Positions 49,803-58,339 of a DNA stretch of 64,000 nt are shown piece after piece (position 1 is the stretch's first letter; each line of letters starts with the position of its first letter). This DNA is from Megasphaera coli (GTDB lineage: Bacteria > Bacillota > Negativicutes > Veillonellales > Megasphaeraceae): assembly GCF_900095855.1 (NCBI RefSeq), contig NZ_FMIY01000002.1:1293322-1357321 (forward strand), written 5' to 3'. Both the position numbers and the translations under genes were made by a program. The notes under the pieces are model-generated. The model searched no databases. It had not been told where the DNA came from and saw only the letters and a list, made by a program, of their open reading frames with translations.

Positions 49803-50123
49803 ATGGTCAAAGAGCAAAAAGAATGTTGCCATACGAATATAAAATTTAAAGAGCGTGACAAAGAAACAACCGAATATAAACGACTTGTTTGCCGTTTAAA
49901 CCGTATTGAAGGCCAAATACGGGGCATAAAAAAAATGCTTGACGACGATCGCTACTGCGTTGATATTCTAACACAGGTCAGTGCCGTTCAATCGGCATTG
50001 AATGCCTTTAACAAGGAACTATTGGGACAACATATTAAAAGCTGTGTCGTCAACGATATTCGACAAGGCAAAGACGAGGTCGTCGATGAACTCGTCTCGT
50101 TATTGCAAAAAATGATGAAATAA
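49803..50123 (+). CDS. csoR: Copper-sensing repressor CsoR
   Basis: 106 residues, all helical. The C-H-C copper site is present: Cys in DDRYCVDILTQ, then His and Cys in GQHIKSCV. The conserved LNRIEGQIRGIKKML helix 1 supports DNA binding. It represses in the absence of Cu(I) and releases the operator upstream when copper is bound, derepressing itself and the ATPase 17 bases downstream. The N-terminus has an extra Cys pair plus His (KECCHTN) beyond the usual start. AGGAGG precedes the ATG. Confidence 0.9.
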   Translation: MVKEQKECCHTNIKFKERDKETTEYKRLVCRLNRIEGQIRGIKKMLDDDRYCVDILTQVSAVQSALNAFNKELLGQHIKSCVVNDIRQGKDEVVDELVSLLQKMMK

Positions 50124-50140: not shown

Positions 50141-52708
50141 ATGAAGCACGAAAAATACACCGTTACGGGCATGACCTGCTCTTCCTGCTCCAGTCGTGTG
50201 GAAAAAACGGTCTCTCAATTGCCCGGTGTAATAACGGTTTCCGTTAACTTGCTGACAAACAGTATGCAGGTCGATTATGATGAAGCGAGATTGTCCGACA
50301 CAGAAATAATCGCAGCCGTTACCCATGCAGGCTACGGCGCATCCCTTGCAGGTGCGCCGGACCGTACTGCCGAAAAAAGCACACTTTCTTCCGCCGCTGT
50401 AAATGCCATGACAGAAATGAAATTCCGTCTCATAAGCTCGCTCATCTTCTTAATTCCGACGATGTACATCGCATCGCATCGCATATTCAACAGGCTCTTC
50501 GGCCTGCCTGTACCGAGTATTATTACGGCAGTATTTGATGGCCCGCAAAATGCTATTGCCTATGCATTCTCTCAATTTCTTTTAATTTTGCCGATTATGT
50601 ATTTTAACCGTCACTACTATATTAACGGTTTTCGCAATCTCTTCCGCGGCGCGCCGAATATGGACAGCCTCGTCGGTCTGGGCTCGGCGGCTGCGGCCGC
50701 CTTCGGTATTTTTGCGCTCTTTCGCATCGGCTGGGGCCTCGGTTACGGTGACATGGAACTTGTACGGTCATATAGCTCCAACCTCTATTTTGAATCGGCC
50801 GGTATGATTGTCACTTTGATCACGGTCGGCAAGTATTTAGAAGCCCGCGCAAAGAGCAAGACAAGTGAAGCCCTGGAAAAATTGATGGACTTGGCACCGA
50901 AAGAGGCAACGGTTATCCGTAACGGCGCAGCGTCCGTCATTCCGGTCAGTGACCTTGTCGTAGGTGACGAAATTTTTGTCCGTCCCGGCGAAAGTATTCC
51001 TTCAGACGGCGTGATTATAGAAGGCACGACGAGTATTGACGAATCTGCCCTCACAGGTGAAAGCATTCCCGTCGACAAAGAACCCGGAGACACTGTTACA
51101 GCGGCAACCTTGAATAAATCGGGAGCCATTCGCATGACGGCTCAACGAATCGGGGAAGATACAACGATCAGCCAAATTATCCGCCTCGTCGATGAAGCGA
51201 GCAGCAGTAAAGCACCTATCGCTAAAATTGCCGATAAGATTTCGGGTATTTTCGTTCCTGCAGTTATTGCCATCGCCCTTATTACTATCGGCGTTTGGTA
51301 CCTTCTCTTGGGAGCAACCTTGGAATTTTCTTTTTCTGCCGGCATTTCGGTCCTCGTCATCTCCTGCCCCTGCGCACTCGGCCTGGCTACGCCCGTAGCC
51401 ATTATGGTCGGCACCGGTAAAGGCGCGGAAAACGGGATTCTTATTAAGTCCGGTGAAGCGCTGGAACGGGCACACTCCATCGACACGGTCGTCATGGATA
51501 AGACTGGTACCATTACGGAAGGAAAACCTGTCGTAACGGATATCATCCCCATCGGCACTACAAAAAAAGATCTGTTGCCTCTTGCCGTCGGATTGGAAGG
51601 CAAGAGTGAACATCCCTTGGCTCAGGCTATCGTCACCTATGGTGAAGCACGGGATGTTTCCCCGGCAAAGGTCGACGATTTTTCCGCCCTCTTCGGAAGA
51701 GGTGTGCGAGGCACCATAGACGGTACGCTTTACTATGCCGGAAACTTACGCCTCATGAAGGAAAACGGCATTCCCACGGATGACGTGAACGAACGTTTGA
51801 ACAACTTGGCCGACGAAGGTAAAACGCCCATCCTCTTTGCGACAAACGCCGGCATTCAGGGAATCATTGCCGTTGCCGATATGGAGAAACAAACAAGTGC
51901 CGCTGCAATTGACTGCTTCCGTCGCATGGGTATTGACGTTGTCATGCTTACAGGCGATAATAAACGGACGGCACGGGCCGTTCAAAAGCGGCTCCGTATT
52001 CCTAAGGTCATTGCGGAAGTATTGCCGCAAGATAAAGAAAAACACATTGCCGAACTGCAGGACCAAAACCATCGGGTTGCCATGATTGGCGACGGTATCA
52101 ATGACGCTCCGGCTTTAATGAAAGCCGATCTGGGTATTGCCATCGGCGCCGGCACGGACGTTGCGATTGAAAGCGCGGATGCCGTCCTGATGAAGAACGA
52201 TCTCCTCGATGCCGTTACGGTTGTTCGTCTCAGCAAGGCCGTAATCAAAAACGTCAAGGAAAATCTCTTCTGGGCCTTTATTTACAACGTCATAGGTATC
52301 CCGTTGGCGGCAGGCCTGTTCTATCCGGCATTCGGACTCAAGCTCAATCCCATGATTGGAGCCGCAGCAATGAGCCTCAGCAGCTTCTGCGTTGTCATGA
52401 ATGCGCTGCGTCTCCGTTTCTTTAAGGTAACGTACCCGAATGTTTCACGTGAAACAATTTTAAACACCACTCATACTTTCACCACTTCCAAGGAGGTCCC
52501 CGCTATGAAAACAACATTGCACATTGACGGCATGATGTGCGACCATTGCAAAAAGCACGTAACGGAAGCGCTTTCCGCAATGGACGGCATCACTGATGTA
52601 ATCGTAAATTTGGAAAACAAGTCTGCCGACGTGACGGCAAATCGTGAGATTTCGACTGACGAGTTTGACAAGGTCATTGCCGACGCAGGCTACACATTGG
52701 TAAAGTAA
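50141..52708 (+). CDS. copA: Copper-exporting P-type ATPase CopA with a C-terminal CopZ-like domain
   Basis: 855 residues. N-terminal metal-binding domain with MTCSSCSSRVEK (residues 9-14), eight transmembrane helices, actuator TGES, membrane Cu site CPC in ISCPCALGLATP, phosphorylation site DKTGTIT, and hinge GDGINDAPAL. After the last helix (MNALRLRFFKV, about 760-770) a linker of about 20 residues leads to a second heavy-metal-associated domain (GMMCDHCKKHV), unusual at this end of CopA and shaped like CopZ. A full ribosome binding site and ATG lie inside the gene ahead of it. It pumps Cu(I) out of the cytoplasm using ATP. The linker DNA also contains a perfect parS. Confidence 0.93.
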   Translation: MKHEKYTVTGMTCSSCSSRVEKTVSQLPGVITVSVNLLTNSMQVDYDEARLSDTEIIAAVTHAGYGASLAGAPDRTAEKSTLSSAAVNAMTEMKFRLISSLIFLIPTMYIASHRIFNRLFGLPVPSIITAVFDGPQNAIAYAFSQFLLILPIMYFNRHYYINGFRNLFRGAPNMDSLVGLGSAAAAAFGIFALFRIGWGLGYGDMELVRSYSSNLYFESAGMIVTLITVGKYLEARAKSKTSEALEKLMDLAPKEATVIRNGAASVIPVSDLVVGDEIFVRPGESIPSDGVIIEGTTSIDESALTGESIPVDKEPGDTVTAATLNKSGAIRMTAQRIGEDTTISQIIRLVDEASSSKAPIAKIADKISGIFVPAVIAIALITIGVWYLLLGATLEFSFSAGISVLVISCPCALGLATPVAIMVGTGKGAENGILIKSGEALERAHSIDTVVMDKTGTITEGKPVVTDIIPIGTTKKDLLPLAVGLEGKSEHPLAQAIVTYGEARDVSPAKVDDFSALFGRGVRGTIDGTLYYAGNLRLMKENGIPTDDVNERLNNLADEGKTPILFATNAGIQGIIAVADMEKQTSAAAIDCFRRMGIDVVMLTGDNKRTARAVQKRLRIPKVIAEVLPQDKEKHIAELQDQNHRVAMIGDGINDAPALMKADLGIAIGAGTDVAIESADAVLMKNDLLDAVTVVRLSKAVIKNVKENLFWAFIYNVIGIPLAAGLFYPAFGLKLNPMIGAAAMSLSSFCVVMNALRLRFFKVTYPNVSRETILNTTHTFTTSKEVPAMKTTLHIDGMMCDHCKKHVTEALSAMDGITDVIVNLENKSADVTANREISTDEFDKVIADAGYTLVK
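52441..52456. other. parS: parS site (ParB binding), perfect match
   Basis: TGTTTCACGTGAAACA, identical to the Bacillus consensus, inside the copA linker (codons for NVSRET). ParB and ParA are encoded 8-9 kb to the left. Confidence 0.92.
52505..52708 (+). CDS. copZ: Possible separately translated CopZ copper chaperone (internal start in copA)
   Basis: ATG 52505 is preceded by AAGGAGG with eight bases spacing, an ideal ribosome binding site buried in the copA frame. The 67-residue product (heavy-metal-associated fold with GMMCDHC near residue 8-14) has the size and form of CopZ. It may be made both as the C-terminal domain of CopA and alone. It is in the same frame, so protein evidence would be needed. 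Confidence 0.5.
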   Translation: MKTTLHIDGMMCDHCKKHVTEALSAMDGITDVIVNLENKSADVTANREISTDEFDKVIADAGYTLVK

Positions 52709-54790: not shown

Positions 54791-55720
54791 TTACTGCACC
54801 GCCGCCTGCTGCTCCCTTACGAGATCCCGCAGTGTCTGTCCTGCCGAGGCATCGCGCACGATATAGGCTTCTCCGTCATCGGGCGCTGCACTCTTGCGCA
54901 TAACCGATTCCTGTTTTTGCGCGAACGCATAATCCATCAGCCGTGTCGCATCGCCGGCCCGATCGTCGGAGTTTAAGACAACGGCTATAATCGTCTTACC
55001 GTCCCTTGTTGCGGAGGCAACCAAATCGGCTCCGCCGTAGTCCGTTGCACCCGTCTTAATTCCGTTCGCTCCCTTGTAGTCAGAACGTAAAAACTCATTC
55101 AGTGTATAGACTGTCTTTTCCCCTCCCGTCGCATAGGGCATAGTGAAAAATGTTTTACCTGTAAACGATTTAAATGTACCGTTTTGCATGGCGTAAGCAC
55201 TGATTTTTGCAAGATCCCGCGCTGTCGAATAATGATTTTTATCAGGCAGCCCGTGAGGATTTACAAATTTCGTATTCACCGTGCCTATGACCGCCGCTTT
55301 TTCATTCATGCAGTCGACAAAAGCGGACACCGTCGGCGCGACGGTTACGGCCGCATCCAGGGCCGCATCACAGCCCGAATAGGTCATCATGGCCGTTACG
55401 GCATTACGCAGCGTAACAGGTTTATCCGCGCTGAGCCCCAGAACGGCGGCATCCGCTTCAAGGGTATTTACTTCAGGCGCATGCGTAACGTGCCGGTCCA
55501 GGACCGCATCACCCGCTTCAGCACACAAGAGCGCCGTCATAATCATGGTCGTGCCGCCGGGATACATCTTTTCGTCCGCATTCTTAGCGTAAATTTCCGC
55601 ACCCGTATCCCCGTCCATGACATAGGCTGCCCGGGCATGAATATCGCTTGGCGGCTCGGTTGCCGTTACCGTTAAGGATAAGCAGCAAAGAAAAGCACTG
55701 CAGGCAAATTTCTTCAACAT
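54791..55720 (-). CDS. D,D-carboxypeptidase-family (S11/DacF) protein with degenerate active site
   Basis: 309 residues with signal peptide 1-20 (LKKFACSAFLCCLSLTVTA). The fold is that of penicillin-binding D-Ala-D-Ala carboxypeptidases: YVMDGDTGAEIYAKNADEKMYP, NTKFVNPHGLPDKNHYSTARDLA, and KGANGIKTGAT with the KTG triad intact. However the catalytic SxxK (normally PASTTKIMT) reads PGGTTMIMT (residues 54-62), losing both Ser and Lys, and the second motif SxN reads SGC (115-117). It should not hydrolyse peptides or bind penicillin covalently. It may be a structural or regulatory pseudoenzyme in the periplasm. It lacks the C-terminal membrane anchor domain. Confidence 0.82.
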   Translation of the reverse strand: MLKKFACSAFLCCLSLTVTATEPPSDIHARAAYVMDGDTGAEIYAKNADEKMYPGGTTMIMTALLCAEAGDAVLDRHVTHAPEVNTLEADAAVLGLSADKPVTLRNAVTAMMTYSGCDAALDAAVTVAPTVSAFVDCMNEKAAVIGTVNTKFVNPHGLPDKNHYSTARDLAKISAYAMQNGTFKSFTGKTFFTMPYATGGEKTVYTLNEFLRSDYKGANGIKTGATDYGGADLVASATRDGKTIIAVVLNSDDRAGDATRLMDYAFAQKQESVMRKSAAPDDGEAYIVRDASAGQTLRDLVREQQAAVQ

Positions 55721-55746: not shown

Positions 55747-56460
55747 TTATAAGGGATTCTTAATCGCTATCCCGGGTCTTCGCGGATACTTACAGGGACT
55801 CTTGCTTATTTTTTTAATATAGATGACCGCTCGTGTATCCGTCAAGCCCGGCAATTGTTTCATTCGTACGTCAACGACGGTCCCGCCCAGTATTTGCAAG
55901 GCTTTTTGCGACTCGGCCAATTCCGCCTTATATGCCGCTCCTTTAAGAGCCACAAAAATACCGTCTTCTTTAACATACGGCAAGGCCCATTCGGCAAGAA
56001 CCGGCAGCCTTGCGACGGCACGTGTCGTCACGACGTCAAATACTTCTCTGTACTCTCCCTTGTGTGCTTCTTCTTCGGCACGGCCGTGTAAAAAAACGGC
56101 TTTTTCATACCCTATAGCGGCAGTAAGCTCCTGTAAGAACTGCAACCTCTTTCGCAGGCTGTCAAAAAAAGTTATTTCCAGATCGCCGTGCATGACGGCA
56201 AGAGGAATCCCCGGAAAGCCGGCACCCGTTCCTAAATCGAGCAATCTGGCGCCCTGCGGAAAATAGGCCTCATCATAACATGTAAGACTGTCGATAAAAT
56301 GCTTTACTACGATTTCATCGGCTTCCGTAATGGCGGTCAAGTTCATGACCTTATTTGTCTCCACCAGCCGCTTAGCAACAGTCTCAAAACGCCTCAGCTC
56401 TTCTTCCGTAAGAGAAAATCCCGCTGCGGCAAACAGTTTTTCACCATTACATAGAAACAT
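55747..56460 (-). CDS. rsmG: 16S rRNA (guanine-N7) methyltransferase RsmG
   Basis: 237 residues. AdoMet loop [23 protein letters not shown] and KHFIDSL at the N-terminal part, and [18 protein letters not shown]. It methylates G527 (E. coli numbering) of 16S rRNA. Overlaps mnmG by 14 bases. Confidence 0.93.
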
Positions 56461-58339
56461 TGCCTTTTTTCTCCCGTTCGTATTGCTCCATGAAAATTAA
56501 AAGGGCCGTAATATCCGCCGGCGATACGCCGGAAATGCGGCTGGCCTGCCCCAGGGAACGCGGTCGTATGTGGGCCAGCTTTTGCCTTCCTTCCATCGAC
56601 ACGGTTTCAATTTTCATATAATCGATATCCGCCGGGAAGAGTTTCCGTTCCAACCGATTGAGCTTCTCGACCTGCTCCTTTTGGCGATTAATATATCCGT
56701 CATACTTGATCATGATTTCCACTTCTTCAGCCACATCTTCGGAGCGCACCGACAGTCCCGGGAAAATACCGCGCAAAACAGCGTACGTCATTTCCTGGCG
56801 GCGCAGTAAATCGGCAACTTTTATGCCCGTCCGCAGCGGAGCGGAACCTGCCGCTTCAAGTTTTGTATTTGTCTCCGCCGTCGGCGTCGCCATGGTTCCT
56901 TCCAACTCGGCAATCATCGCTTCTATGTCCGCCTTCTTTTGACAAAATGCCTCATAGCGCTCATCCGAAACCAATCCGATACGGCGCCCCTTTTCCGTAA
57001 GACGCAGATCCGCATTGTCCTGACGCAGAATGAGACGATATTCGGAACGACTGGTCATCATGCGATAGGGCTCTTCCGTCCCCTTAGTAACCAAATCATC
57101 AATCAACACGCCTATATACGCTTCGGCACGAGTCAAGACAAACGGTTCCTTGCCTTGCAGTCTCAAGGCCGCATTAATGCCGGCCATCAATCCTTGAGCC
57201 GCCGCTTCTTCATAACCGCTCGTCCCGTTCGCCTGGCCGGCGGAATAGAGGTTGGCAACGTGCTTCACTTCCAGCGTCGGCAAGAGCTGCAGCGGATCCA
57301 GACAGTCGTACTCGATGGCATAGCCGGGCCGCATAATTTCCACCTCTTCCAAACCGGGAATGGTCTGTAAAAATTCCTTTTGCACATCCATGGGCAAGCT
57401 CGTACTCATACCCTGCACGTACATTTCTGTCGTGTACAGGCCTTCCGGCTCAACAAAGAGTTGATGCCGCTTTTTATCGGCAAAGCGCAAAATCTTGGAC
57501 TCTATGGACGGGCAGTAACGCGGCCCGATACCGGTGATGGTGCCGTTGCACATGGGCGCTCTCTCCAAGTTGCGGCGAATAATGTCATGTGTGTTTTCAT
57601 TCGTATACGTAAGCCAACAGCATACCTTATTACGATTTTCCCGCTTGGACAGGAAAGAAAAGGCATGGTCTTCCTTATCACCATCCTGAAGAGTCATTTT
57701 CTCTCGCCGTAAGCTCCGCCCGTCTACACGGGCAGGCGTACCGGTCTTAAAACGCAGCAAAGAAATTCCCGCCTTGCGCAACGAATCGGACAAGGCTTCC
57801 GCCGACCGTTGGCCGATAGGGCCGGCGGCACAGGTCGTTTCACCGATAATCACGCGGCCCTTCAAATACGTCCCTGTTGCCAAAATGACCGCCCGGCTCA
57901 TAAACGCTTCGCCTAATTCCGTACAAATGCCCTTAACTACGCCGTTCTCTATAATGAGCTCCGTAACCATAAGCTGTTTCACGTCCAAACCGGACTGCGT
58001 CTCCAAGACGTGCGTCATGACGGCCTGATACTGCTTCTTGTCCGACTGTGCCCGCAAAGAATACACGGCCGGACCCTTGCCCGTATTGAGCATTCTCATT
58101 TGAATCGCCGTCTTGTCGGCAATAAGGCCCATCTGCCCGCCGAGGGCATCGATTTCCCGAACAAGATGGCTCTTGCCGGGACCTCCTACAGCAGGGTTAC
58201 AGGGCATGAGCGCAATATTATCCAAGTTCAATGTTATGAGCAAGGTCCTCACGCCGAGCCGGGCGGCCGCCAACGCGGCTTCACAGCCGGCATGCCCGGC
58301 GCCGACGACGATGACATCATACATACCTGCAATAAACAA
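56447..58339 (-). CDS. mnmG: tRNA uridine 5-carboxymethylaminomethyl modification enzyme MnmG (GidA)
   Basis: 630 residues. FAD loop [32 protein letters not shown]-type [31 protein letters not shown] and [17 protein letters not shown] are the family signatures. With MnmE it installs the cmnm5 group on wobble U34. A TTG at 58339 is six bases after AGGAGG, while the ATG five codons later (58324) lies about 21 bases from it, so TTG is the better start. In the classic mnmE-mnmG-rsmG order near the origin. Confidence 0.94.

Follow-up and report, generated by a model that had tools for sequence, protein, structure and literature searches.

Low-molecular-weight penicillin-binding proteins (PBPs) have been studied as enzymes. 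The window analysed here, the whole 64,000-nucleotide stretch of Megasphaera coli DNA, encodes a protein of the peptidase S11 family (X) that raises the question of whether it is still an enzyme and, if it is not, what it may be kept for. An earlier note had read its SxxK motif as GTTM, and the 309-residue open reading frame bears this out. Residues 55-59 of X are G-G-T-T-M, against the canonical [AG]-S-T-T-K of S11 proteins, with Gly56 at the position of the catalytic Ser and Met59 at that of the catalytic Lys, and the SxxK that characterizes an active D,D-carboxypeptidase or PBP is missing. Every active ortholog or paralog in the comparison has Ser at position 56 and Lys at position 59. X is almost certainly dead as a D,D-peptidase. 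The features of the gene and its product are collected in Table 1.

Table 1. Coordinates of X, its motifs and its conserved upstream neighbours (positions in the window)
Feature	Position	Strand	Basis or conservation
X, S11-family pseudo-D,D-peptidase, 309 aa	54791..55720	(-)	Open reading frame; Peptidase_S11 match of 148.7 bits; orthologs in 13 genomes, same locus
Signal peptide of X, about residues 1-20	55661..55720	(-)	Sequence; cleavage site inferred by eye
Motif 1, GTTM (residues 56-59), replacing SxxK	55544..55555	(-)	Gly in 6/6, Met in 5/6 dead orthologs
Motif 2, SGC (residues 115-117)	55370..55378	(-)	SGC in 7 intact orthologs and K15; ancestral
Motif 3, KTG (residues 222-224)	55049..55057	(-)	KTG in 12/13 orthologs; RTG in G014
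Arg254, aligned with Arg248 of K15	54959..54961	(-)	Invariant in 14 aligned sequences
Private tail motif Y..R.A..GQTL (residues 286-297)	54830..54865	(-)	Single match in each of 13 X-bearing genomes
rsmG and mnmG, upstream of X	55747..58339	(-)	Conserved neighbours; rsmG ends 26 nt before X

The ATG of X is preceded, 9 nt to its 5' side, by a good Shine-Dalgarno sequence (GGGAGG), and the reading frame is undamaged over its full length and includes a signal peptide. The product matches the Pfam family Peptidase_S11 (PF00768) at 148.7 bits (E 2.4e-43) against a curated cut-off of 27.6, a score so high that the assignment is not due to chance; no NCBIfam model scored above its own cut-off. So strong a match also carries a warning for annotation, namely that S11 matches are not all carboxypeptidases or penicillin targets. 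By sequence, the best solved relatives of X are DacB of Bacillus subtilis (3mfd) and the K15 DD-transpeptidase of Streptomyces (1skf and 1es5, also S11). An AlphaFold2 model built from 14 homologs has a mean pLDDT of 84 and superposes on 3mfd with a Z of 34.8 (1.6 Å over 240 residues) and on K15 with a Z of about 33, the rmsd to the two lying between 1.6 and 1.9 Å over about 240 residues. On this confident model, X is predicted to keep the DD-peptidase/beta-lactamase fold. The N-terminus is modelled as a low-confidence helix at the signal peptide, and residues 274-290 are of low confidence and followed by a 12-residue helix. The layout of PBP5-type proteins, a second beta-sheet domain followed by an anchor helix, is absent, the chain stopping about 35 residues past the catalytic domain. 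The signal peptide, overall fold, KTG and intact frame that had been ascribed to X are borne out by sequence, Pfam and model.

SGC in place of SxN had been taken as a further mark of inactivity, and this part of the earlier reading does not hold. SGC is an accepted variant of SxN, present in K15 and in all seven orthologs with an intact SxxK, and is ancestral. In a structural survey the motifs of K15 (entry 1es5) are given as TGSTTK, SGC and KTGA (PMC12073871); entry 1es5 is the S216A mutant of the enzyme. X resembles K15 in its fold, with 36-38% identity over about 244 residues, in SGC and KTG, and in Arg254, which corresponds to Arg248 of K15 when counted along the sequence alignment, while the GSTTK context of K15 is that of the active X orthologs. 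The two differ in Ser35 and Lys38 of K15, where X has Gly56 and Met59, and in a private C-terminal tail of X that lies past the end of the K15 chain. DacB, the closest solved structure (34% identity), differs in its intact ASITK, SGN and KTG and has no Arg at the position of Arg254.

Orthologs were searched for in 17 genomes of the family, 15 of them from one genus (the Megasphaera group), and X was found in 13 of these 15, the window's own copy included, with an intact frame in every one. The other 12 orthologs are 51-68% identical to the window protein over the matched part; those with intact motifs are 49-54% identical to it. Six species carry PGG at motif 1 (PGGTTM in five and PGGTTT in G011), and seven carry an intact PGSTTK. 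By identical protein sequences, G003 is Anaeroglobus geminatus and G004 is Veillonellaceae bacterium Marseille-P2974. The codons of the motif fit single steps, AGY to GGY for the Ser and AAG to ATG or ACG for the Lys. A comparison of homologs had been proposed as a check on the two substitutions, and it finds Gly and Met together in five species and Gly in six. Since intact-motif orthologs occur in the same genus, the loss took place within the Megasphaera group. Homologs with an intact SxxK, which had been named in advance as the sign of a recent mutation, do exist in seven species of the genus, but the loss is not recent, as the closest relatives of the window protein are dead too. A sequencing error or recent mutation is ruled out, the change of Ser to Gly recurring in six species and that of Lys to Met in five. 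The idea of a conserved periplasmic pseudoenzyme is upheld by orthologs at one locus in six species without the catalytic Ser.

X is absent from G005, a genome of the same genus that is 99% complete and showed no S11 protein at all, so that the role of X is dispensable in that species. It was not found in G012 (same genus, 78% complete), nor downstream of rsmG in G015, which belongs to a sister genus. Across the class, the DNA pattern P[GA]GTTM, which is blind to other kinds of dead S11 protein, occurs in 5 of 380 genomes of Negativicutes, all of the genus of X, and a dead form with this motif is not widespread in the class. Of 17 S11 proteins taken from elsewhere in the order, 16 have ASTTK and none shows a dead variant, according to an automatic read-out that took the wrong stretch for motif 1 in L069 and for motif 3 in two rows. 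An active-type S11 paralog is present in all six genomes with a dead X; the window genome has a single copy, with the motifs ASTTK, SGN and KTG. A third, more distant S11 protein, in an open frame of 507 amino acids, was seen in one species of the genus, G002 (C1:192868-193665, L053).

Comparison of dead and active orthologs separates what was lost with catalysis from what was kept. Thr223, Gly224 and Arg254 are invariant in the 14 aligned sequences, and Cys117 (xGC) does not vary among the 13 orthologs, dead or active; Ser115 does, motif 2 reading TGC or GGC in three dead orthologs. Among the differences that consistently divide the two groups only Ser56Gly, Lys59Met/Thr and Leu145Ile stand out. 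In all, 32 positions fixed in the active proteins are altered in at least one dead protein, including Ser115, lost in three dead species, and Ala228, just past KTG, lost in all six. Because these and other positions have changed, the constraint on the catalytic cleft of the dead forms is partly relaxed. Ligand binding by dead X may even be gone, given the changes at Ser115 in three species, at KTG in one (RTG) and at Ala228 in all six.

The tail shows a different pattern. Past the catalytic domain, dead and active orthologs alike keep Y..R.A..GQTL, and the corresponding DNA pattern is found in exactly one copy in each of the 13 X-bearing genomes and in none of the four X-less ones. It is not shared with other Megasphaera proteins, the sole match per genome always being X. 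For the tail, a Pfam search of five orthologs at E <=10, in which HMMER filters drop weak matches, listed neither LysM nor any other domain. That the tail persists where catalysis has been lost suggests that it contributes to the function X retains.

The reading favoured here, to which a probability of about 60% is given, is that X works non-catalytically in the periplasm, by binding stem peptides or by docking on a partner. Its ancestor would have been a K15-type D,D-peptidase (PGSTTK, SGC, KTG) at the mnmE-mnmG-rsmG locus of the Megasphaera group. With Ser replaced by Gly and Lys by Met, neither stem peptides nor beta-lactams should, on chemical grounds, give an acyl-enzyme with X any longer. 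X has kept the fold, the private tail and, in the cleft, the half on the carboxylate side (Thr223, Gly224 and Arg254). In the periplasm this cleft could bind D-Ala-ended stem peptides through the Thr of KTG and Arg254 without cutting them; alternatively, the surface of X together with its tail might dock on a partner wall enzyme. Either way, by analogy with the inactive LytM factors DipM and EnvC, X would position, shield or regulate. The sole active-type S11 paralog, with its intact ASTTK, SGN and KTG, presumably supplies the remaining S11-type carboxypeptidase activity.

A stricter form of docking would leave the cleft empty, so that surface and private tail alone matter, as a scaffold that docks on a membrane partner or a wall enzyme. 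No other feature retained in both active and dead forms is as distinctive as the tail, and the relaxed positions lie in and around the cleft, as this explanation would have it; KTG and Arg254 are nevertheless conserved in the dead forms, with RTG in one species, and a pure scaffold is considered rather unlikely.

The remaining question of whether X is kept at all was approached through one-ratio codon models (MG+F3X4, kappa fixed at 1). The dead six have a dN/dS of 0.147, and the trio of window, G003 and G008 one of about 0.10; the active orthologs have 0.11-0.13, the active paralog has 0.095 and rsmG has 0.07-0.11. These values are rough, with synonymous sites near saturation, and all lie far below 1. 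X is under purifying selection in the dead species, and selection for a non-catalytic role is quite probable. The alternative that X is a decaying relic, its activity lost because the paralog suffices and its sequence drifting toward loss under relaxed selection, draws on the slightly higher dN/dS of the dead six than of the active orthologs, on the 32 altered positions with Ser115 and Ala228 among them, and on the lack of X in G005. It is unlikely in view of frames that are undamaged in all six divergent species, of a dN/dS far below 1, and of the constancy of Gly56, Met59 (5/6) and the GQTL tail at an overall identity of about 50-67%. That X has become a different enzyme, with Cys117 or another residue as nucleophile, has in its favour the invariance of this Cys in all 13 orthologs beside a variable Ser115, but is very improbable, since the Cys is ancestral, coexists with the intact Ser/Lys pair and occurs also in K15, and no general base partner is evident once Lys59 is lost.

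A non-catalytic role in the periplasm would have precedents both in the superfamily and in wall metabolism; dead members of this superfamily and dead regulators of wall hydrolases are already known. The protein of entry 5IHV, from Burkholderia ambifaria, is an inactive protein of the beta-lactamase fold with Gly for Ser and Ala for Lys that keeps the geometry of the catalytic core (PMC12073871). Like X, it is a natural pseudoenzyme with Gly at the nucleophile position and a non-base residue for Lys; it differs in belonging to the class A branch and not to S11, and its second and third motifs are GDK and KAG. The paper on 5IHV (PMC12073871) gives structures and not, as here for X, a set of orthologs at a single locus with active members. 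In wall metabolism, LytM-domain proteins that are themselves inactive bind wall hydrolases and stimulate them (PMC10336132). The LytM factors DipM, EnvC and NlpD can serve as a working analogy to X, as inactive wall-peptidase domains turned regulators; their fold is unrelated, of the zinc metallopeptidase type, and regulation is proven for them, whereas for X it is a putative role. As far as could be found, an ortholog group of S11 pseudoenzymes with intact siblings at the same locus and in the same genus is new; an exact-word search of open papers, a weak instrument, found none pairing pseudoenzyme with D,D-carboxypeptidase. With intact and dead orthologs at one locus, sharing fold and tail, it becomes testable whether the function of an S11 protein is separable from its catalysis.

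The number of catalytic losses was addressed with two phylogenies. With the motif columns left out, the tree of X brings the six dead species together (84/98), although a tree constrained to keep G011 among the active forms is worse by less than 1 log unit (p-AU 0.43). A species tree from five genes (rpoB, gyrA, mnmG, mnmE and rsmG) groups the window, G003, G008 and G014 in one firm clade, places G011 among the active species (100/99) and leaves G004 without a resolved position. On the five-gene tree a single clade of the six dead species is rejected (p-AU 0.035 under LG+G4 and 0.013 under a mixture model), in a test that leaves out two X-less genomes, one of them a close sister of G011; with MnmG alone it is not rejected (p-AU 0.128). 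These AU p values are moderate, and the dead group was defined after the gene was seen. As the dead species do not form one clade on the five-gene tree, there were at least two losses of catalysis, each with a change of Ser to Gly, or X passed from one species to another, which is a lead rather than a result. Under repeated loss, the base was replaced by Met in one or more lineages and by Thr in G011, and the Thr fits an independent loss. That a K15-type D,D-peptidase was made a pseudoenzyme two or more times in one genus, each time by Ser to Gly and each time keeping fold, locus and private tail, is put forward tentatively, at somewhat less than even odds. If true, it would mean that X played a non-catalytic part even while it was an active enzyme, and its orthologs, some active and some inactive, would form a natural series in which to isolate that role. 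In the draft of A. geminatus (L136, L156-L158), rpoB and gyrA are fragmented by frame changes, most likely sequencing errors.

The surroundings of X had been described as an mnmG-rsmG-ptsHI cluster, and this stands for one side only. The genes mnmE-mnmG-rsmG directly precede X in all 13 X-bearing genomes, while adjacency to ptsHI is limited to the window and A. geminatus, perhaps through a local rearrangement, and a functional link between X and ptsHI as a general feature is ruled out. In most relatives the gene downstream of X encodes an MFS transporter, and in G008 a DeoR/fructose-kinase/PTS operon follows. A cobalt-chelatase-like gene stands after rsmG in G005 (L096), in the place of X. Elsewhere in the window, positions 50141-52708 hold a gene identified by eye as a P-type ATPase of the copper type that has heavy-metal-binding domains at both ends; a CsoR-like regulator gene (49803-50123, also by eye) precedes it on the same strand.
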